Of a DNA stretch of 27,271 bases, positions 5,487-21,829 are shown piece after piece (position 1 is the first letter of the stretch; the number at the start of each line of letters is the position of its first letter). The translations under genes and the position numbers were made by a program. Origin of the DNA: a virus. The notes beneath the pieces were generated by a model. It saw only the letters and a list, made by a program, of their open reading frames with translations. It made no database searches and was not told the DNA's origin. Where the stretch lies: positions 1 through 27,271 of IMG/VR virus record IMGVR_UViG_3300044635_000563; one strand, 5' to 3'.

Positions 5487-5515
5487 GCCTGACGGCTTGA
5501 CGAGTGTGCAATCTT

Positions 5516-5557
5516 GAGCGGGCGGCTTCCACAACGGGGCCGCCCGCTCTCTTTCTT
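5516..5557 (+). terminator. Rho-independent terminator after the capsid gene
   Basis: A perfect 11-bp GC-rich stem, GAGCGGGCGGC (5516-5526) pairing with GCCGCCCGCTC (5539-5549), with a 12-nt loop. It is followed by TCTTTCTT (5550-5557). It probably reduces transcription from the highly expressed capsid gene into the glycosyltransferase and connector genes. The T tract is interrupted by C, so read-through may be substantial. Confidence 0.8.
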
Positions 5558-5566
5558 GAGGCACGC

Positions 5567-6298
5567 ATGCTAGTCAAAGTCGGTGGCACCGAAGTTGACA
5601 TCAGGGTGGAGGCCGTGCTCTCCATGCCACGGCTCTCGTTCACGTCCAACCACTTCGCCTGGGCCCAGGCCCTGATGCCGCTTGGCATTCGCCCCACGAT
5701 GGGCACGGGTGCGTTCTGGGATCAGGTAAACACCCGCGTGATGGAGCAGTTCATCGACTCGTGCGAGTACCTGCTGGCCATCGACTACGACACCTTTTTC
5801 ACCAAGCAGGACGTTGAGCAGCTGTTCGCCATGGCGATGACGTTTCAGTGCGACGCCATCACTGGCATGCAGACCAAGCGTGAAGACGGCCGCCCCATGC
5901 TGACGCTCAAGGGCACGCTGGACAGTCCGCCAGATGATGGGCACACACAGGTGCCAAAGGAATGGTTCGCGGAGCCTGTGCAGGAAGTGGATACGGCGCA
6001 CTTTGGCTGCACCGTCATCAGCACAGCGGCTCTCAAGCGCACAAAGAAGCCGTGGTTCTGGAGCAAGCCAGACCCGCAAGGCGGGTGGGGTGACGGCAGA
6101 ATTGATTCTGACATTGCGTTTTGGAAAACCTGGCGAGACAGCGGCAACCGCGTCTTTGTCTCGCCGCGTGTCGTTTTAGGCCACGGCGAGTACGTGGTGA
6201 CGTGGCCCGGCAAGAACCTTACCGCCCCTGTTTTTCAGTGGACTACCGAGTTCACGAACACGGGTAAACCGCCAGAATCTGCATGGAGTGTGGGCTGA
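5567..6298 (+). CDS. GT-A-type glycosyltransferase
   Basis: Probably transfers a sugar from a nucleotide-sugar donor. The 243-aa product shows a DxD metal-binding motif at D73-Y-D75 inside a hydrophobic strand (LLAIDYDTFF). Upstream is the Rossmann-like segment LSMPRLSFTSNHFAWAQALMP. A downstream D-S-D-I-A-F-W-K-T-W segment resembles the acceptor/base region of GT-A folds, and a late LGHGEY could supply the histidine ligand. The start at 5567 has GAGG 5 nt upstream; an earlier in-frame ATG at 5504 lies across the terminator and is unlikely. It sits between capsid and connector genes, so virion-protein glycosylation is a plausible but unproven role; donor and acceptor are unknown. Confidence 0.75.
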   Translation: MLVKVGGTEVDIRVEAVLSMPRLSFTSNHFAWAQALMPLGIRPTMGTGAFWDQVNTRVMEQFIDSCEYLLAIDYDTFFTKQDVEQLFAMAMTFQCDAITGMQTKREDGRPMLTLKGTLDSPPDDGHTQVPKEWFAEPVQEVDTAHFGCTVISTAALKRTKKPWFWSKPDPQGGWGDGRIDSDIAFWKTWRDSGNRVFVSPRVVLGHGEYVVTWPGKNLTAPVFQWTTEFTNTGKPPESAWSVG

Positions 6299-10451: not shown

Positions 10452-13325
10452 ATGGCCACCATCCTCTCACTCGCGCTCAAGGTAAACGCTGACGCCTCTG
10501 GCGTGGTGAAGAACCTGACGCCGGCTGAGCGGGCACTTGAAAATCTGGCCAAGCAGGCGAGTAAGGCCACAAGCATTTTTGACGAGTTCGCCGGCACTAG
10601 TGCTGCCGCTGCCAACGCTCAGTTCAATGCGTCCAAGTCCATGGCCGACTTGGCGGACAGTCTCAAGCGTGGCGAGATCACTGCCCAAGAGTTTGCGTCT
10701 AGGTATGAAGACCTCAGCGACGCAATCACCAAGGAGGCTGCGGCCCTTAAGCGTGCGGCCCAGATCACAGAAGCCAACATCTCGCCGGCAGAGAAGTACA
10801 GCAGAACTGTTGAAGAACTTGACAATCAGGTGCGAGCCGGCCGCATTTCGCAAGAGACGTACAACCGTGCTCTAGAAAAGGCCAAGGGCGATCTCGACAA
10901 GACTTCCACTGCCGTGGACAAGACCGACAAGAGCATGGAGTCTCTTGCCAGGAATACAAAGATTCTTGCCGGCATCGAGATTGGCCGCCTGTTCTTAGAC
11001 GGTCTCTCGGCCATCGGGAACGTCTTTCAAGATATTGGCTCTCGCGTCACGTCCCTCGTCTCTAGCGTCAACTCGTCTGTCGATACGCTCAATGACTTCT
11101 CGGCCCGTACTGGCATCGGCGTTGAGGCGTTGCAGGGCTACTCGCTCGCGGCCAAGCTGGCCGGCGTGGATACCGAGCAGTTCGGTGCAGCGGTCCAGAA
11201 GTTGGCAGTGAACATCGGCAAGGCTACGCCTGGGGACGCGCTCGACAAGTCGCTCAGAGGAATCAACCTTTCGGTTGCTGAGCTCAGGGCCCTTGCGCCG
11301 GAAGACCAGTTCTCGGCCATCGGTAACGCCATCTCTCAACTACCAACGGCTGCCGATCGTGCAGCTGCTGCGGTTGAAATCTTCGGCAAGCAAGGCGCTG
11401 CCCTGGCACCGCTATTCCGTGAGGGGGCCGCAAGCCTTGAGGAGCTCAAGGCCAGGGCTGAGCGGCTCGGCATCATCGTCAGCGAGACGCAGGTGAACAA
11501 CGTCGCTGACATGAACGACGCCTTTGACTTGGTGCGAGCCACCATTGAAGGCATCGTTGGGCAGGTGATTGGCAACCTTGCGCCCGCAGTCACTGACGTG
11601 ACTAATCAGTTTCTGCAGTTCGTGGAAAGCTGGAGCGGTGCTCAGGGTGAGGGCGGCACTGGCATTGCCAACGCCATCACGGATGTGCTGCTGCAAGGGG
11701 CTGAGTATTTCGCCGCAGTCTTTGACGAGTTCGTGTCTGGGCTGGTGGGGCTCGGCGTCACGTTTGAAGACACGTCAGCGACGTTCACCGCGTCTGCCAA
11801 TGCGTTCACATTTGTGAGCGAAGGGCTGCGGACGGTTGCGAACGTCTTTGAGCTTGCAGGCAATGCCCTATCTGCTGCGCTTGGCAAGATCATTGAAACA
11901 CTAGGCAGCTTCGTCAGCAGTGACCTTGAGGAATATGGCAAGGAACTGACGCGGCAGGCGATGATTGCCACCGAGCAGAACTCTCGCCAACTTGAGGACG
12001 CAGCGGCAAACGCAGGACGGGCATTTGTTGGGATATTCACAGCGGACGGCGGGACTGCTGAGAACTCAGGGAAGGGGGCCGCCGAGTCATACCTGTCTGG
12101 GCTGCGCGACGAGATCCGGAGGCAACGCTCGCCGGAAGTCAAAGTTGAGCTCAACCTTGGCAAGACCGAAGAGCGGCTGCAGCAGTTCTTGGCAACTGCT
12201 GGCGACGAGGCTTCCGTATTCCTGCAGCAGTCCATGGGAACCGTCGAGACGTTCCAGCAAATGGCAGAGGCTGGCGGGCTGACGGCGGACCAGATTGAGA
12301 TCATGAACGGCTTCATGAAGAACGTGAACGCCGAACTGGATAAGGAACTGGCGAAGAGGCAGGAGGCTGCCGATGCCGCTTTGGCCCAGGCCGACGCAGA
12401 CCGCAAGCGGCTTGACCAGTTGCTTGAGACGAAGGACGAGGGGGCCAGAATCGAAAACGACTTGCTTACCGTGCAGCGTGAGCAGGCCCGCGTCTCCGAG
12501 CAACTCGCGGCAGCACGAGCAGCCAACAATCAGGCCGACGCCGACGCAGCTGCTGCGAGGCAGGCGGAACTTGACCAACTGACGGCAAAGCTGGAAGACG
12601 AGCAGCAGGCCCTTGAGCAGGGCTTCGGTGCTGGGTTCAACGCTGCCTTCCAGTCGGTTGACCAGAACATCAGCCAACTGATTGCCAAGTCCCAGGAGTT
12701 TGGGCAGGCAGGATTTGACGCAGCCCTGCGTCTGCAGGAAGGCATCGCTGCCGCTCAAGAGCAGGCACGGGACGGCATTCTGAATGCCGAGGCTTTCAAC
12801 GCCGAAGTGCAACGGCAGCAGGAGCTCTTCAATCAGGAGCTCGCCAATATCCAAGAGGCAGAAAAGGCTAGGGACGCGGCGGCTGAAGACAGGAAGGCCA
12901 AGGAGCAGGAGCGAGCCAACGCTGAGCTCAAGGCCCAGGACGATTACCGCAAGCAGCAAGAGACTGCCCTGCAGGCGTACCAGCAACAGCAGCAGCAGGC
13001 CCAGCAGCAGTACGCCCAGGAGCAGGCCCGCATCTTTGAGGAGCAGCGCAAGGCCGCCGAGGCCGAAGCAAAGCGGCAGGAAGAGCGCATCCGCAAGCTC
13101 AACACGCTGGGCGCTCAGTCCGTTAACGTGGCGGACATCCGCAACGTCGAGAGCGCCAACCTTGTGCTGCAACTTGGGGCCAACGCCCAAGATCCCGCAC
13201 TTATTCAGCAGCGGCTGCAAACGAAGCTACTCGAGAAGATTGCCGTAGGCATCGGCCAGGCGGCAAGCAACTATTTCAACCAGCCCGTCGCCATCGTTGG
13301 CTACGCTGACGTGGGAGGCATCTAA
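10452..13325 (+). CDS. Tail tape measure protein
   Basis: Sets tail length and probably helps DNA entry. The 957-aa product is the longest in the window. It has an N-terminal helical region, a central segment with FSARTGIGVEALQGYSLAAK (a tape-measure signature) and hydrophobic helices around residues 170-240 and 400-500. Long Ala/Glu/Gln/Lys coiled coils follow, including a glutamine-rich stretch near residue 845 (AYQQQQQQAQQQ). At about 0.15 nm per residue, known for other siphophages, a tail near 140 nm is expected. Its start is 3 nt after the chaperone stop, and its stop overlaps the next ATG (TAATG). Confidence 0.92.
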   Translation: MATILSLALKVNADASGVVKNLTPAERALENLAKQASKATSIFDEFAGTSAAAANAQFNASKSMADLADSLKRGEITAQEFASRYEDLSDAITKEAAALKRAAQITEANISPAEKYSRTVEELDNQVRAGRISQETYNRALEKAKGDLDKTSTAVDKTDKSMESLARNTKILAGIEIGRLFLDGLSAIGNVFQDIGSRVTSLVSSVNSSVDTLNDFSARTGIGVEALQGYSLAAKLAGVDTEQFGAAVQKLAVNIGKATPGDALDKSLRGINLSVAELRALAPEDQFSAIGNAISQLPTAADRAAAAVEIFGKQGAALAPLFREGAASLEELKARAERLGIIVSETQVNNVADMNDAFDLVRATIEGIVGQVIGNLAPAVTDVTNQFLQFVESWSGAQGEGGTGIANAITDVLLQGAEYFAAVFDEFVSGLVGLGVTFEDTSATFTASANAFTFVSEGLRTVANVFELAGNALSAALGKIIETLGSFVSSDLEEYGKELTRQAMIATEQNSRQLEDAAANAGRAFVGIFTADGGTAENSGKGAAESYLSGLRDEIRRQRSPEVKVELNLGKTEERLQQFLATAGDEASVFLQQSMGTVETFQQMAEAGGLTADQIEIMNGFMKNVNAELDKELAKRQEAADAALAQADADRKRLDQLLETKDEGARIENDLLTVQREQARVSEQLAAARAANNQADADAAAARQAELDQLTAKLEDEQQALEQGFGAGFNAAFQSVDQNISQLIAKSQEFGQAGFDAALRLQEGIAAAQEQARDGILNAEAFNAEVQRQQELFNQELANIQEAEKARDAAAEDRKAKEQERANAELKAQDDYRKQQETALQAYQQQQQQAQQQYAQEQARIFEEQRKAAEAEAKRQEERIRKLNTLGAQSVNVADIRNVESANLVLQLGANAQDPALIQQRLQTKLLEKIAVGIGQAASNYFNQPVAIVGYADVGGI

Positions 13326-14203
13326 TGCCCATACATTCGTGGCGTGAACTTGCACGCACGCTGGAAGGAGAAGTGCGGGGCGGAACGTCGGCCACCCGTA
13401 CGTTCGTGCTGACGCTTGCGGATAACACGCTAGAGAACAACCCGCCCACTGAAACGGAACTTATCTCGGCTCTCGGCCTCGACAACTGGGGCAGCCTGCA
13501 CCCGTCTCTGAGTTTCTTGGGACTGCGGAGGCTGTCAATCACGGAGCGGTTTTCCGACTCGCCATATCACGTTCAAGTAGTTGCCGAGTATGGGCTCGTT
13601 ACGCCAAACGACCTTGAGACTCCACTGGACCGCGATGCTGAGTGGTCTTTTGTGGCTGAGCCTGCCCAGGTGCCGGCTTTCTACTACTGGGACGGCACGA
13701 CACGCAGGCCGCTGGTGAACTCTGCCAATGACTTCTACGAGTCGCTTACGACTGAGGAGCAGATTGTCAGGGCGACGATGAAAAAGAATTACGCCAACTT
13801 TCCTGCTGCTCAGATGCAGGCCACAAACAAAATCAACAGCGGCACTTACTTTGGCTGCCCTGCTCACTCGTGGAAGGTTGCTGGCGTGAACGCCACGTAT
13901 ACCGTCGAGTCCTACAATAACGTGACCTATAGCTACTGGGCCGCGACGTGTGAGCTTCTTTACCGAGAGAGCAAGTGGAACCTACGCATACCTGATGTCG
14001 GGTGGAACTACATAGACGCTGCGAGCGGGCAGAAGCGGCGCACGATGGTGTTTGACTTTGAGAACGCAGAATGGGTCGCCTCTGCCAATCCTGTCGCTCT
14101 CGACGGATCAGGTGGTCAGTCATCGAGCTTCCCCTACATTCACGACTTTCGCGTTAACGAAGAAGCCAACTTCGGCAGCCTCTTCGGCACGCCGCCAACC
14201 TGA
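13325..14203 (+). CDS. Putative distal tail protein
   Basis: The 292-aa product is unrecognised at family level. It has mixed alpha/beta character, many aromatic residues (FYYWDGT, YSYWAATCELLYRESKWNL) and a pattern in its second half that resembles phage tail or baseplate beta domains. It directly follows the tape measure gene, where a distal tail (Dit-like) protein is expected. GGGAGG lies 6 nt before the ATG, which overlaps the tape measure stop. The function is inferred from gene order only. Confidence 0.65.
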   Translation: MPIHSWRELARTLEGEVRGGTSATRTFVLTLADNTLENNPPTETELISALGLDNWGSLHPSLSFLGLRRLSITERFSDSPYHVQVVAEYGLVTPNDLETPLDRDAEWSFVAEPAQVPAFYYWDGTTRRPLVNSANDFYESLTTEEQIVRATMKKNYANFPAAQMQATNKINSGTYFGCPAHSWKVAGVNATYTVESYNNVTYSYWAATCELLYRESKWNLRIPDVGWNYIDAASGQKRRTMVFDFENAEWVASANPVALDGSGGQSSSFPYIHDFRVNEEANFGSLFGTPPT

Positions 14204-14206
14204 CGC

Positions 14207-14788
14207 ATGGCCCGCCAAAAGAAACCTTTTGACGCGGTGCAGTTCACTCGGGAAAGCGCCGAGCGGGTTGCTCGAGTTGTTCGCCAGGCCGAGCTATCAC
14301 CGCCAGCTGCGTCGCCGCTGACGTTTGATAGGCGGCTTTCGGACAGGCACCCTAAGCAGGTGCGGGCCGCGACGTTCTCAGGCGCGTGGCCGATCGGCAG
14401 CGTCAAGGCGGTGACGTTCAAGTATGCGCCGACTGCCACGGCCAACGTGGTGAATCTCTCTTGGCCAATCACGCTCTCTGGCTACGTCAACGAGAACTGC
14501 GTTGTGGGCAAAGAAGGCACCAACTGGTGGCTCGTTACGCCGATGCTTCAGACGGCCACGGCCGTAATCGTCACGTCCACGCAGTCATTCTCATTTGCCA
14601 CCGGAACAGCAACCGCTTCTGCCGTTTCTGACGTGCTGATCTCAGCAACGCTCAACACCAACAACTGCGTCATCGCCGTGGGCAAAACGCTCACGACGGC
14701 CATGATCACCGTGGTCAACTCTACGGCAACGGCAGCCGTTGTTACTGGCACTTCCGCTGCTACGTTTCTCAGAATACGAGTGCCCTGA
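14207..14788 (+). CDS. Putative tail-associated structural protein
   Basis: The 193-aa product has a basic helical N terminus (about residues 1-55; RESAERVARVVRQAELSPP). A beta-rich, Thr/Val/Ala-rich body follows (VKAVTFKYAPTATANVVNL, ATAVIVTSTQSFSFATGTA), suggestive of a tail-tip or fibre-like domain. A conserved family is not recognised. It is 3 nt downstream of the previous gene, and its stop forms TGATG with the next start. A host-contact role is possible but unproven. Confidence 0.6.
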   Translation: MARQKKPFDAVQFTRESAERVARVVRQAELSPPAASPLTFDRRLSDRHPKQVRAATFSGAWPIGSVKAVTFKYAPTATANVVNLSWPITLSGYVNENCVVGKEGTNWWLVTPMLQTATAVIVTSTQSFSFATGTATASAVSDVLISATLNTNNCVIAVGKTLTTAMITVVNSTATAAVVTGTSAATFLRIRVP

Positions 14789-15582
14789 TGGCTTGCCCTT
14801 GCTGCTGTAGCGAGCCCGGTGCGTGCTGCGTTCCTGCTGGGGACGGTTATTCGTGCCAGCAAAAAACGTCCTGCGAGTGCTCAACTCTTTCGGGATGGTT
14901 TCACGGAGCAGGTATCGCGTGCGTCGCCGGACTATGCGGCTCTTTCAATCCATGCTCGTTTTGCTGCAGTAGCCTGCCGTCAACATTCAGCGTCGCCATC
15001 AACATTGTTTTTGACAAGTTGGTGCTGATTGCAAGCACGGGCACGTTCTCATCGTCTGGGAGCAGGATCACGTCTCCGTCTGGGGTATCCAGCAGCAAAA
15101 CGCTTACTGCGAATGTGACATTGACTGGCGGAAGTGGGGCGTGCCGAAGTTACAGCTTTAGCGGGTGCGGGCCTTACGGAGACATGCAAAACATTCAAGT
15201 CTTGCTCAGTCAAAATCACTTGAATGGGGATTGTCGATGGAACCTCGCAATCACCAGCAGGCATCTTAGTGCCGCAACTTATGTGAACGATGCCAACTTT
15301 AACACGTTCAACTGTGCCACCGGCACTACTGAAAACTTTTTTGACTCAGGTAATCTGACGGTTTCTGATCTGGTCGTGACTGGACCGACGTGCAATCTTT
15401 CTGGGCTAACTTTCTCTGGCCCGACAACGATTGTGCGTGAGGCGTGCGTTGAGTCTTTTGGAACGAACACACGGCTCTGCCGCATTGCCAACTTCAACGC
15501 TGGCGAAACCAGTGCGGACATTGCTTTTGGGTCGCTGCCGGAGCAGATCATCACCGCAACATGGACAGCCACAATCGTATGA
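14788..15582 (+). CDS. Cysteine-rich tail-region protein
   Basis: The 264-aa product has 14 cysteines in its first 60 residues (C3, C5-7, C13-14, C23, C29, C31, C45, C50, C56, C59-60) and seven more later. The spacing GACC-x8-C, then a helix-like stretch, then G-W-F-H-G-A-G-I-A-C-x4-C, resembles short cysteine repeats I associate with secreted Planctomycetota proteins. The rest is beta-rich with Thr/Ser/Gly (SGSRITSPSGVSSSKTLTAN, LSGLTFSGPTTI), like a fibre or adhesin domain. No signal peptide is seen. The start overlaps the previous stop (TGATG). Likely a virion surface or tail-tip protein, by position. Confidence 0.6.
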   Translation: MACPCCCSEPGACCVPAGDGYSCQQKTSCECSTLSGWFHGAGIACVAGLCGSFNPCSFCCSSLPSTFSVAINIVFDKLVLIASTGTFSSSGSRITSPSGVSSSKTLTANVTLTGGSGACRSYSFSGCGPYGDMQNIQVLLSQNHLNGDCRWNLAITSRHLSAATYVNDANFNTFNCATGTTENFFDSGNLTVSDLVVTGPTCNLSGLTFSGPTTIVREACVESFGTNTRLCRIANFNAGETSADIAFGSLPEQIITATWTATIV

Positions 15583-15860
15583 CGCTGCTGTGCAAGTTTG
15601 ATGCTCGCGGCTTCTGCACCGTGTGCGAGCACAAGGAGTCTGCACCTGGGTTTCAACGCAACTGCTGCGGATCACCTGGGTGCATGGATGCAGCCAATCG
15701 CAAGGGGCTTGGTGATTACGTCTCCGATGCGCTTCGTCTTTTTGGAATCACAAAAGAACGCGCTCAAGCCGTGGCGTCAGCGGTTGGCGTGAAGGACTGC
15801 GGGTGCTCTCAGAGGCAGGAAGCCTTGAACGATCTCGGCCGCAAGTTCGGTATCGGTTGA
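15579..15860 (+). CDS. Small Cys-rich protein with CGC-type C terminus
   Basis: The 93-aa product starts at an ATGA overlap (15579), preferred over an upstream in-frame ATG at 15561. Eight cysteines are present: C5, C13/C16 (CTVC), C29-C30, C35 and C74/C76. The C-terminal DCGCSQRQEALNDLGRKFGIG resembles a short CGC-x-x-R-x-x-x-LN motif that I recall from the tail-end region of many phages. Two metal sites are plausible. Function unknown. Confidence 0.65.
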   Translation: MTLLCKFDARGFCTVCEHKESAPGFQRNCCGSPGCMDAANRKGLGDYVSDALRLFGITKERAQAVASAVGVKDCGCSQRQEALNDLGRKFGIG

Positions 15861-15895
15861 CGCCCCCGCTACGGTGGAAAGCGAAAGGGCGAGCC

Positions 15896-16183
15896 GTGGC
15901 AGACGATCACGTTTTCACGCTGAACGGCGACGAGCGTTGGCTACTGCGTTTCACCACGCTCAAAGGTGCTGCCTACGGGTACACGTTCAGCCAGAAGGCG
16001 AAGCACCCGCGAATCATCCTTGACGCTCGCATGCGTGGCCGCAAGAAGCTCGAGGTGTTAGTGCATGAACTTCTGCACGCCTTGAATCCAACGCAGTCTG
16101 AGGAGCACGTTGAGCAGCAGGGCAAGGATATTGCCCGCGTGCTCTGGAGTCTTGGATACCGCGAGGTGACTGATGGGCCGTAG
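15896..16183 (+). CDS. Small HELLH metallopeptidase-like protein
   Basis: The 95-aa product contains H57-E-L-L-H61, the zinc-binding HExxH motif. An SEE motif at 68-70 follows, where an acidic residue could be the third ligand. The framework LEVLVHELLHALNPTQSEEHV then KDIARVLWSLGYR matches a compact metallopeptidase-like family that I recall from phage accessory regions. The GTG at 15896, with AAGGG about 6 nt upstream, gives a clean N terminus (MADDHVFTL); the longer in-frame ATG at 15803 overlaps the previous gene. The substrate is unknown, and proteolysis has not been shown. Confidence 0.7.
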   Translation: MADDHVFTLNGDERWLLRFTTLKGAAYGYTFSQKAKHPRIILDARMRGRKKLEVLVHELLHALNPTQSEEHVEQQGKDIARVLWSLGYREVTDGP

Positions 16184-17078
16184 TGCTGGCACATTCCGCC
16201 GCAAGAACGCGAGCGACGCCTGGAACGTCACAAGCCTTGAAGGCAGCGTCACACGCATTGATTTCAACCAGCGTCTATGGGTGCTGCTCTCCAGTGACTG
16301 GCATTGGGACTCGGTGAAGTGCAACCGAGAGAAGTTGTCTGCGGACCTGACCAAGGCCCGCGAGCTCAACGCCGCAGTGCTCAGCATTGGCGATCACTTC
16401 GACGCGATGGGTGGCAAGTACGACCCGCGATCCAACGGCAAATGGGACGTGCGGCCCGAGTTCCAACGCGGCAACTATTACGATGACATCGTCACGCAGT
16501 GCGCCGAGTACCTCGAGCCGTACCGCGAGCAGATGGCGCTGATAACGCCGGGCAATCACGAGACGGCTGTGCGGAAACGGATGGAGACGTGCTTGACCAC
16601 GCGGCTCGTTGAGCAGCTGCGGGTGCGTGGCAGCAAGTGCAGGGCCGCTGGCTACTCGGGCTGGGTGATGTTTCGGGCCAAGGCCGGGAAGACGAGCACG
16701 GCACTGTACCGACTTTGGTACCATCATGGTTATGGTGGCGGGGGCCCGGTGACTCGCGGCGTCATCGACTACAGCCGCTACCTCACAGACGTAGACGCTG
16801 ACTGCGTACACGCCGGGCACGTCCACCAGCGGACGCTGATTGAGGCCAGCCGGCAACGGCTATCGCCTAATGGGCTCGTGCGGGTGCGGCCTATCCACTT
16901 GGTGCGAAGTGCGGCCTACAAGCAAGAGTGCCTCACCGATGGCTGGGCCGTAGAGAAGGGCATGAGCTCACGCCCGCTTGGCGGTTGGTGGATGCTCTTG
17001 CGGTGGAATGTAGACCATACGGAGTTGCGGGCATCATTCCACGATTCACCAAGGGACGACAATGACAACCACGATTGA
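16173..17078 (+). CDS. Calcineurin-like metallophosphoesterase
   Basis: The 301-aa product has the full set of metallophosphoesterase motifs: D42-W-H44 (SSDWHW), G-D-H-F-D (about 73-77), G-N-H-E (about 127-130), an HH pair in LWYHHGYGG (about 187) and G-H-V-H (HAGHVHQR, about 220). Two metal ions would be coordinated. Substrates for phage members include DNA ends, nucleotides or RNA phosphates and cannot be deduced here. The ATG overlaps the metallopeptidase gene by 11 bp, and the end overlaps the next gene by 17 bp, so this is one transcription unit. Confidence 0.9.
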   Translation: MGRSAGTFRRKNASDAWNVTSLEGSVTRIDFNQRLWVLLSSDWHWDSVKCNREKLSADLTKARELNAAVLSIGDHFDAMGGKYDPRSNGKWDVRPEFQRGNYYDDIVTQCAEYLEPYREQMALITPGNHETAVRKRMETCLTTRLVEQLRVRGSKCRAAGYSGWVMFRAKAGKTSTALYRLWYHHGYGGGGPVTRGVIDYSRYLTDVDADCVHAGHVHQRTLIEASRQRLSPNGLVRVRPIHLVRSAAYKQECLTDGWAVEKGMSSRPLGGWWMLLRWNVDHTELRASFHDSPRDDNDNHD

Positions 17079-17646
17079 AGACGCCAACGAGTTGCTGCGT
17101 GCTGCTGTCGAGATCCGCCGCGAGAACCAAGCGGCAGGCAAGCCGCTGAAGGACTGGTACGACGTGTCGCAGCCTGTAACGGAACCTATGCCACCTGTCG
17201 CAGAAGCAGAGGAAACGCAACACGTCGACGAGCCATACATCGAGCACTTGCTTCACGCGCACCACCTGCACCGTGCTGGCCTGACTCAGGACGAACTAGA
17301 CGAGGCCCTTGAGCGTCTGGCCGGCGACGGCATCACGCACGAGCAGCGGCCCGGCTCGCTGCCGTTCTTAGAACTGCTTGAGGAGCTCAGGCAGCTGCAC
17401 CTGAGCAAAAGCCAAGACTACGGGAGCGAGAGCGACCCGCTAGCCAACATCCGCAGCGGTGCTGACTTCGTGAACATTGAGCCGTGGCGTGGTTGTCTCG
17501 TGAGAGTGGCCGACAAGGTGCAGCGGCTGAAGACGTACTGCAAGACGGGCCGGCTCGTCCACGAGGGAGTGCGCGACACGCTGCTGGATCTCTCGGCGTA
17601 TAGCCTGCTGGCGATTGTGCTTTTCGATGAGGGCCGCAATGGCTGA
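17062..17646 (+). CDS. NMAD1/DUF1599-like protein
   Basis: The 194-aa product ends in a domain (about residues 110-190) with K-S-Q-D-Y-G, then PLANIRSGADF, VRVADKVQRLKTY and VRDTLLDLSAYSLLAIV. This arrangement fits the DUF1599 family, also named nucleotide modification associated domain 1. These proteins are thought to act in phage nucleotide modification, but the reaction is unproven. The N-terminal half is charged and may be partly disordered or an adaptor, including a HAHHLHRAGLTQDELDEAL helix pair. AAGGGA is 6 nt before the ATG. It overlaps the phosphoesterase end, suggesting joint expression. Confidence 0.75.
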   Translation: MTTTIEDANELLRAAVEIRRENQAAGKPLKDWYDVSQPVTEPMPPVAEAEETQHVDEPYIEHLLHAHHLHRAGLTQDELDEALERLAGDGITHEQRPGSLPFLELLEELRQLHLSKSQDYGSESDPLANIRSGADFVNIEPWRGCLVRVADKVQRLKTYCKTGRLVHEGVRDTLLDLSAYSLLAIVLFDEGRNG

Positions 17647-20974: not shown

Positions 20975-21829
20975 ATGACCACTGAACTTTCAACACAACG
21001 AGCCAGCGGGCTGGCTCTTCAAAGCTTTGACGATGCGTTTCGGTTTTCCAAGATGGTGGCGGCTAGCGAGTTCGCCCCCAAGGATTTCAAGGGCAAGCCG
21101 GAATCCTGCCTGCTGGCAATCCAGCACGGCAGCGAAGTCGGGCTCAGCCCGATGCAGTCCCTGCAGTCGATCGCCGTCATCAACGGGCGGCCCACGATCT
21201 GGGGCGACGCGGCCCTGGCCCTGGTGCAAGCGTGCTCAGTCTGCGAGTACGTCCGCGAGTACATGGAAGGCGAGGGCGACAGCCTTACCGCCGTCTGCGA
21301 GGCCAAGCGGCAGGGCTACCCTGCACCCACTACGGTGCGGTTCTCGGTGGCCGACGCCAAGAAGGCGTCTCTGTGGGGCAAGACAGGCCCGTGGACTCAG
21401 TACCCGTCTCGGATGCTGCAGCTGAGGGCTCGCGGGTTCGCCTTGCGTAACGCATTCGCTGACGCCCTGCGTGGGCTTGTGACAGCCGAGGAGGCCCAAG
21501 ACTACCCCACGCAGCCTGAGCCGGTTGTCGTGCGTCCCAAGTTCACCGACGAGCCCAAGGCCAGCGTGGTGAAACTCAAGGCGGATCAGCCGGCGGCTGC
21601 CAGTGATGCACTTGGCAACGCCCGTCTAGCGGTGAGCAAGGCCGACAGCATCACGGCGTTGAATCGTCTGAGAACGCTGGTGGCTCAGCGGCTCACCGAA
21701 GGCAAGTTCACGAAAGCCGAGCACGACGAGCTCGTGCAGCTAATGCTGCACAGAGCAGAGATGCTGGGCGACTCTGACGATGGCGTGGCGTTTGAGCACG
21801 AGGCCGCCGAGCACGAGGTGCACGCATGA
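20975..21829 (+). CDS. recT: RecT-like single-strand annealing protein
   Basis: Anneals complementary single strands for phage recombination. The 284-aa product has the RecT-type N-terminal block: RFSKMVAASEFAPKDFKGKP, then LLAIQHGSEVGLSPMQSLQ and INGRPTIWGDAALALVQA. A VADAKKASLWGKTGPWTQYP segment and the SRMLQLRARGFALRNAFADA helix follow, all diagnostic of phage RecT. The C-terminal third is charged and variable. No exonuclease partner lies immediately beside it. Start spacing is set by the repeated leader AAAGGACGCGAG. Confidence 0.88.
   Translation: MTTELSTQRASGLALQSFDDAFRFSKMVAASEFAPKDFKGKPESCLLAIQHGSEVGLSPMQSLQSIAVINGRPTIWGDAALALVQACSVCEYVREYMEGEGDSLTAVCEAKRQGYPAPTTVRFSVADAKKASLWGKTGPWTQYPSRMLQLRARGFALRNAFADALRGLVTAEEAQDYPTQPEPVVVRPKFTDEPKASVVKLKADQPAAASDALGNARLAVSKADSITALNRLRTLVAQRLTEGKFTKAEHDELVQLMLHRAEMLGDSDDGVAFEHEAAEHEVHA

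Follow-up and report, generated by a model that had tools for sequence, protein, structure and literature searches.

Excerpts of PMC10408124 describe many phage tail fibres and tailspikes as a fixed anchor carrying an exchangeable head, and modular receptor-binding proteins as having a conserved N-terminal attachment part, an exchanged C-terminal part and horizontal swapping between close relatives. The product of the gene analysed here, p264, is like these proteins in those features and in having its gene in the tail module, after that of the tape measure. It differs from them in the size and composition of its putative anchor (about six residues with a cysteine cluster vs. a tentative 150 aa in the same excerpts), in the cysteine content of its alleles (7.8% on average) and in having neither a recognisable enzymatic domain nor a known binding domain. 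A second likeness is to a GACC repeat of Planctomycetota, for which no family name was found (protein C226 of genome G005): cysteine spacing, a G-x-x-x-G-x-G signature and a profile match are shared, but p264 has a single copy, in which the first loop is three residues longer and there is one more cysteine, lacks a signal peptide and is encoded within the tail operon of a phage. The same module is carried by proteins from other viral contigs (L129, L165, L163 and others), some with CCC or CCCC starts, but these are mostly far longer, with bodies unrelated to p264 and, in many cases, collagen-like GPTGPTG stretches. Phages predicted to infect freshwater Planctomycetes are mentioned in excerpts of PMC6802176, in which the term "tail fib" was absent. 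Among the titles and abstracts listed in literature searches, none described the cysteine-tagged family reported here.

Genome context and reality of the gene

The window, that is, the whole stretch of DNA analysed (27,271 nt), is the 27-kb IMG/VR virus record IMGVR_UViG_3300044635_000563. It encodes a large terminase, portal, protease, capsid, connector proteins, tape measure, integrase, RecT and methylases, and the virus is probably a siphovirus with an HK97-type head. A protein of PHROG 1574 (function unknown, E 1.2e-7) is encoded at 5504-6298, between the capsid and head-tail adaptor genes. The features considered were as follows:

10452..13325, plus strand: tail tape-measure protein (PHROG tail length tape measure families, best named match E 4e-26)
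13325..14203, plus strand: p292, conserved tail protein of 292 aa directly behind the tape measure, constant left flank (57 viral loci)
14207..14788, plus strand: p193, putative adapter of 193 aa (33 viral loci; alignment)
14547..15881, plus strand: exchanged cassette, outer limits (blastn homology breaks)
14771..14805, plus strand: 35-base island at the LRIRVP/MACPCC junction (88.6% identity in L018)
14788..15582, plus strand: p264, cysteine-rich hypervariable protein of 264 aa (ORF, relatives)
14788..14805, plus strand: N-terminal cysteine tag MACPCC of p264, proposed dock (alignment of alleles)
14818..14937, plus strand: GACC module of p264, residues 11-50 (profile match to the Planctomycetota repeat)
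14953..14967, plus strand: second cluster CSFCC of p264, residues 56-60 (C56, C59 and C60 conserved in L303)
14977..15579, plus strand: variable body of p264, residues 64-264, predicted all-beta (32 body clusters among 68 alleles; low-confidence model, pLDDT 52)
15579..15860, plus strand: p99, cysteine-containing downstream gene of 93 aa, exchanged with the cassette (ATGA overlap with p264)
15896..16183, plus strand: p126, HELLH metallopeptidase-like, conserved right flank (weak Pfam matches)
20975..21829, plus strand: RecT-family annealing protein (Pfam PF03837, E 1.5e-6, over its cut-off)

The tape-measure frame was also matched by one PHROG family bearing no function name (E 5e-30), and was followed by the genes for p292, p193, p264, p99, p126 and a phosphoesterase, in that order. 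The ATG of p264 lies on the TGA of p193 (TGATG) and p264 and p99 overlap by ATGA, so these three genes are probably translated together. The Pfam matches of p126 (Peptidase_M78 and SprT) were weak and under the cut-off. The phosphoesterase (16173-17078) was 94-99% identical in most close relatives, in which the nearby cassette was unrelated.

The AlphaFold model of p292 reached a pLDDT of 77.5. In a structure alignment of residues 1 to about 91, 31 of the 50 rows shown were phage tail, neck, baseplate or injection-system proteins (Z up to 5.7), the best row being an unrelated protein, and a Foldseek search of viral models gave 17 matches (E 0.001 or better), none of which was listed with a named function. 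The modelled N-terminal domain may be tail-tube or Dit-like, consistent with a tail-tip operon.

The sequence-only reading of this locus had drawn attention to 14 cysteines within the first 60 residues of p264, with CCC and CC clusters. The count was correct (residues 3, 5, 6, 7, 13, 14, 23, 29, 31, 45, 50, 56, 59 and 60; CCC at 5-7, CC at 13-14 and 59-60), and at least 14 cysteines in 62 residues had a binomial probability of 1.8e-14 at the background of ten other window proteins (1.18% cysteine). The whole protein has 21 cysteines in 264 aa (7.95%, vs. 0-2.3% in the 18 listed ORFs from the small terminase to p193). The frame is a real gene under purifying selection, as judged from the one comparable allele pair (92% DNA identity; 14, 13 and 35 differences at the first, second and third codon positions, respectively; dN 0.047, dS 0.209). 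In this pair, codons 1-62 held four differences, all at third positions and one of them residue-changing, and the dN/dS beyond codon 62 was about 0.24 (0.060/0.250). By inspection p264 had no signal peptide, its MACPCC start being without a hydrophobic segment.

A constant tag in front of variable bodies

Relatives were fetched with p193 (33 viral loci) and p292 (57 viral loci) as baits, and further ones by a TGATG-MxCPCC junction pattern, which gave 70 stretches; 48 of these had an upstream frame of at least 60 aa and a downstream frame of at least 50, and 40 of the 48 upstream proteins ended in RVP. The allele set was built from 119 loci, several of which shared a contig, that had both a p193 tblastn match and a downstream frame, and comprised 68 distinct ORFs of at least 60 aa, ten of them cut by contig ends and some near-duplicates of others. 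Forty-seven started with MxCxCC and 19 more had CC within 35 residues (66 of 68 in total); the two exceptions had CSPCC just past residue 35 (L064) and CCC in the next ORF (L036). M1, C3, C5 and C6 were invariant across 17 aligned alleles, rows that had been picked for such a start. The bodies of the 68 alleles fell into 32 clusters (blastp E 1e-3, 30% coverage), which may be an undercount since inserts rather than bodies account for some of the links (e.g. L019-L293). Among the 64 alleles with a full p292, those pairs whose p292 proteins were at least 90% identical had unrelated bodies in 64 cases and related bodies in 21. Cysteine content averaged 7.8% in the 58 complete alleles (range 2.55-16.8%). 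The protein that had been singled out from the window is thus one allele of a hypervariable gene in which only a short N-terminal cysteine tag is shared.

Twelve p292-bearing loci had no p193 match, and eight of them end 220 bases or less past p292. In two others (L067 and L068) a p193-like gene was seen by eye, followed by a gene starting with the strand-plus-CCC form of the tag. L089 has a p193-like gene and then a 629-aa ORF with no early CC, and L066, which was left out of the p292 alignment for a stop inside its translation, has no tagged gene in its remaining 1.4 kb; both carry a different tail-tip gene set behind p292. The tag is therefore the rule but not universal, these two loci having no tagged gene in the sequence present.

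The GACC module, on which the sequence-only reading had centred, was one among several kinds of insert behind the tag. Much of the body is preserved in L303, 33% identical to p264, as are the tag, the second cluster and all six canonical cysteines of the module; scanning further for relatives of p264 gave only contigs already known, among them that of L303. Other alleles had cysteine patterns with a presumed resemblance to WAP domains (L019, L026, L058, L060 and L293) or granulin (L032). In three pairs of alleles, alike bodies followed unlike inserts. The bodies of L007 (no insert) and L026 (a WAP-like insert) share 57% over 189 aa, those of L016 (no insert) and L019 (a pair of WAP-like units) 31% over 178 aa, and those of L032, behind a granulin-like insert, and L293, behind a WAP-like one, 33% over 91 aa. 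The 251-aa allele of L032 has a run of CCGG/CCP motifs (the presumed granulin resemblance), a proline stretch and then the L293-like body. Three forward ORFs of 254 aa (L061, L062 and L063) have a poly-serine stretch of dozens of residues after the cysteine tag, a further spacer type following a similar tag.

Tag type and the upstream protein

The N-terminal half of p193 (about 110 aa) was conserved and the C-terminal half variable, ending in LRIRVP; 41 of 68 p193 homologues ended in RVP. Three tag/tail types were distinguished: a direct CxCC tag with an upstream LRxRVP end, a strand plus CC/CCC, and AAGMYP plus CxxCC, the last two both with a cysteine near the upstream C-terminus. An RVP-like end was found upstream of 48 of 54 direct tags, and a cysteine within the last seven upstream residues in all 13 alleles of the other two types (nine and four, respectively). 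Tag class and upstream C-terminus were associated (Fisher 3e-10, a value that takes the alleles as unrelated, with classes set after the data had been seen and one unclassed allele counted among the rest). Median upstream length was 193 residues for direct tags vs. 146 for strand plus CC/CCC and 106 for AAGMYP. This association between sequences supports docking of the tag on the upstream protein and is not proof of it; tag and tail may be merely co-inherited, since both lie inside the exchanged cassette. The type C tags are hydrophobic, which could mean membrane insertion instead.

Exchange of the cassette

Twelve relatives were compared with window positions 12501-17500 by blastn. Two (L004 and L006) had the same allele as the window and aligned throughout, L004 as far as its contig end. 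In the other ten, homology stopped at 14547-14584 (14422 in L049) and resumed at 15795-15881 (only at 17080 in L039). By these positions, the unit exchanged between relatives is a cassette of about 1.2-1.3 kb that takes in the C-terminal half of p193, p264 and the greater part of p99. One of the ten other-allele relatives (L018) conserved the 35-base junction island inside the otherwise unmatched region. In many relatives the position of p99 is taken by other genes, among them several cysteine-containing kinds (with motifs such as CGCPV...LSKLSWADQ.CP and C.C...A..MD..GP..C).

No inverted repeats were found at the cassette, and no reverse transcriptase among the 22 window proteins scanned with Pfam, in a window that may be an incomplete genome. 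A diversity-generating retroelement as the source of diversity was not supported; the alleles differ by replacement. The RecT protein is a plausible driver of the exchange.

The GACC module and the Planctomycetota repeat

A pattern search found, in G005, a protein (C226) with a signal-like N-terminus and 15 tandem GACC repeats. A profile of these repeats, built with the window excluded, matched p264 at residues 11-50 (29.6 bits, E 1.1e-5 for one sequence), where the six canonical cysteines are spaced CC..C-x7-C-x13-C-x4-C, as in the repeat. In three shuffle controls of residues 1-62 (5,000 each) the maxima were 19.8, 21.7 and 28.7 bits and none of the 5,000 reached 29.6, the narrowest margin being that of the control in which cysteines only were moved (28.7 bits). 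The GACC...C...C spacing noticed in the sequence alone is thus beyond chance, and the likeness to cysteine repeats of secreted Planctomycetota proteins that had been proposed with it gained support from the same match.

With the window row included, the repeat profile matched nine of 246 Planctomycetota genomes, G005 among them, vs. none of 249 Pseudomonadota (eight of 245 vs. none of 249 with G005 excluded, p 0.0035), at most 31 candidates being scored per genome and Pseudomonadota serving as the sole control phylum, with no positive control inside it, which limits the weight of its empty result. The matched proteins that were read were long, several with signal-like N-termini by eye (L092, L100, L101, L102 and L108). 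The 64-aa segment as a single query in 99 Planctomycetota genomes matched G001 alone, and there a frame interrupted by two stops, so that a single sequence is too weak a query and a profile was needed. A narrow DNA pattern for the form GACCxxDGxC of the repeat was found in one of 99 Planctomycetota and in none of 100 Pseudomonadota.

Alleles that matched the profile at the same locus were L303 (E 1.7e-6) and L134 (E 6.5e-5), the latter of type C and with the module at its C-terminal end; L076 has a possible module whose profile score was not significant. In other viral contigs a profile-supported module was present at 65 of 120 loci among the matches listed, many beside collagen-like repeats. 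Very long proteins mixing GPTGPTG collagen-like repeats with GACC modules were seen, among the matches listed, in L129, L165, L163, L176 and others, and module proteins starting with CCC or CCCC clusters in L147, L149, L223 and L232. In L232 (6190-6852, minus strand), a CCC tag and a GACC module are fused to a domain like that encoded by the relatives' separate gene downstream of the adhesin; this arrangement of sequences suggests that the products of the adhesin and downstream genes may cooperate. As the module is frequent in other viral contigs too, it is no proof of a planctomycete host or origin, and p264, having no signal peptide, shares the module with the secreted Planctomycetota proteins and is not a member of them.

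Known families, fold and host

No family match for p264 was found in Pfam, PHROGs or NCBIfam and no real match among PDB sequences; none of these four held a known receptor-binding protein matching it. Neither p264 (tblastn) nor p292 had a match in the records of the "phages" collection, and two host repeats had none in phage records. In plasmids p264 gave by tblastn two matches only, both at E 5 and to Aeromonas tail-type proteins. The first 64 residues of p264 alone gave one match at E 6, in a Thermus phage. Structure prediction, also proposed from the sequence alone, was uninformative: the p264 model was poor (pLDDT 52) and Foldseek gave no match at E 0.001 or better.

The p292 family was found in two binned contigs: L088, assigned to Planctomycetota, with an MPCPCC gene in place, and L089, assigned to Alphaproteobacteria (5.3 kb), with no MPCPCC-type gene. 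Larger genome samples gave the same two genomes only (one of 392 and one of 398). The parts of L088 and L089 that were read look viral, so that host assignment is a matter of binning, with conflicting results; the host evidence for this phage group is weak and conflicting.

Discussion

We consider it rather probable that p264 serves a tailed phage as its distal, exchangeable adhesin or receptor-binding protein, with a docking tag, a rigid spacer and a variable head and subject to cassette swapping. In such a protein the MxCPCC tag would dock p264 at the tip of the tail, the likeliest partner being the C-terminal end of p193; the small cysteine-rich module (here one GACC repeat) would act as a stiff stalk or spacer; and the rest of the protein, rich in beta structure, would be the variable head touching the host surface. 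Adapter tail, adhesin and downstream gene would be swapped as one cassette by recombination in the conserved flanks, and the cysteines might either stay reduced until lysis and only then be joined by disulfides, or, in the tag, be ligands of a metal. The adhesin reading has the following in its favour: the position of the gene behind the tape measure, p292 and p193, with overlaps on both sides; the early CC of 66 of 68 alleles over 32 body clusters; the unrelated bodies (64 pairs vs. 21) at near-constant p292; the homology breaks at about the same two places in ten of 12 relatives, with the junction island kept in L018; the pairing of tag type with upstream C-terminus; alike bodies behind different inserts; purifying selection on p264; and the anchor-and-head architecture of many tail fibres and tailspikes (PMC10408124, in excerpt). 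Counting against an adhesin are the failure to match any known receptor-binding protein, the poor model with no Foldseek match, the lack of p264 and p292 matches in the "phages" collection, the possible co-inheritance of tag and tail, the hydrophobic type C tags, the two alleles with no early CC (L064 and L036) and the two loci with no tagged gene (L089 and L066).

The same observations bear on other roles. The GACC module of secreted Planctomycetota proteins, the phage integrase and the hydrophobic N-termini of type C alleles would all suit a host-derived secreted or surface protein (a moron) made in infection or lysogeny and no part of the virion, which might for example modify the host surface or exclude phages; this is unlikely for a protein that begins with MACPCC, has no signal peptide by inspection and overlaps its neighbours on both sides in a tail operon, and a tagged gene stands here in nearly every relative with a p193 match, unlike a typical accessory gene. 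Of the host-derived adhesin piece of the sequence-only reading, adhesin is the likeliest role given the exchange pattern, and host origin is a mere possibility for a module that many other viral contigs carry too; overall, that reading was partly supported.

Small metal-tipped spikes are known in other phages, and an invariant CxCC spacing over unrelated bodies suits a metal site, so p264 might be a tail-tip or decoration protein whose tag putatively binds iron or zinc at the tip axis, its variability reflecting relaxed constraint and not receptor choice. We regard this too as improbable: the body dN/dS of the single allele pair is low for relaxed constraint, and bodies are replaced wholesale instead of drifting. 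Least credible, and very improbable in our view, are phage effectors or anti-defence proteins diversifying against host defences; their small size and high diversity would be accounted for, but neither a constant N-terminal tag tied to the upstream C-terminus nor a place among the tail genes would be expected of a soluble effector, and no family match was found in Pfam, PHROGs or NCBIfam.

Within the adhesin reading, a more specific and tentative proposal, which we think may well not hold, is a plug-and-socket joint: a three-cysteine tag, locked to a matching adapter tail by metal or by post-lysis disulfides, would mount any head, in at least three tag/tail types and with interchangeable cysteine-rich stalks like the modules of bacterial surface proteins.

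If p264 is such an adhesin, the host-recognition gene of an uncultured phage group could be found in metagenomes by MxCPCC behind LRxRVP in spite of dissimilar bodies, and the tag would be a minimal anchor by which binding domains could be attached to a tail. It would then be testable by what route a virion protein so rich in cysteine matures after synthesis in a reducing cytoplasm, and a plug-in adhesin would let the phage change what surface p264 sticks to.
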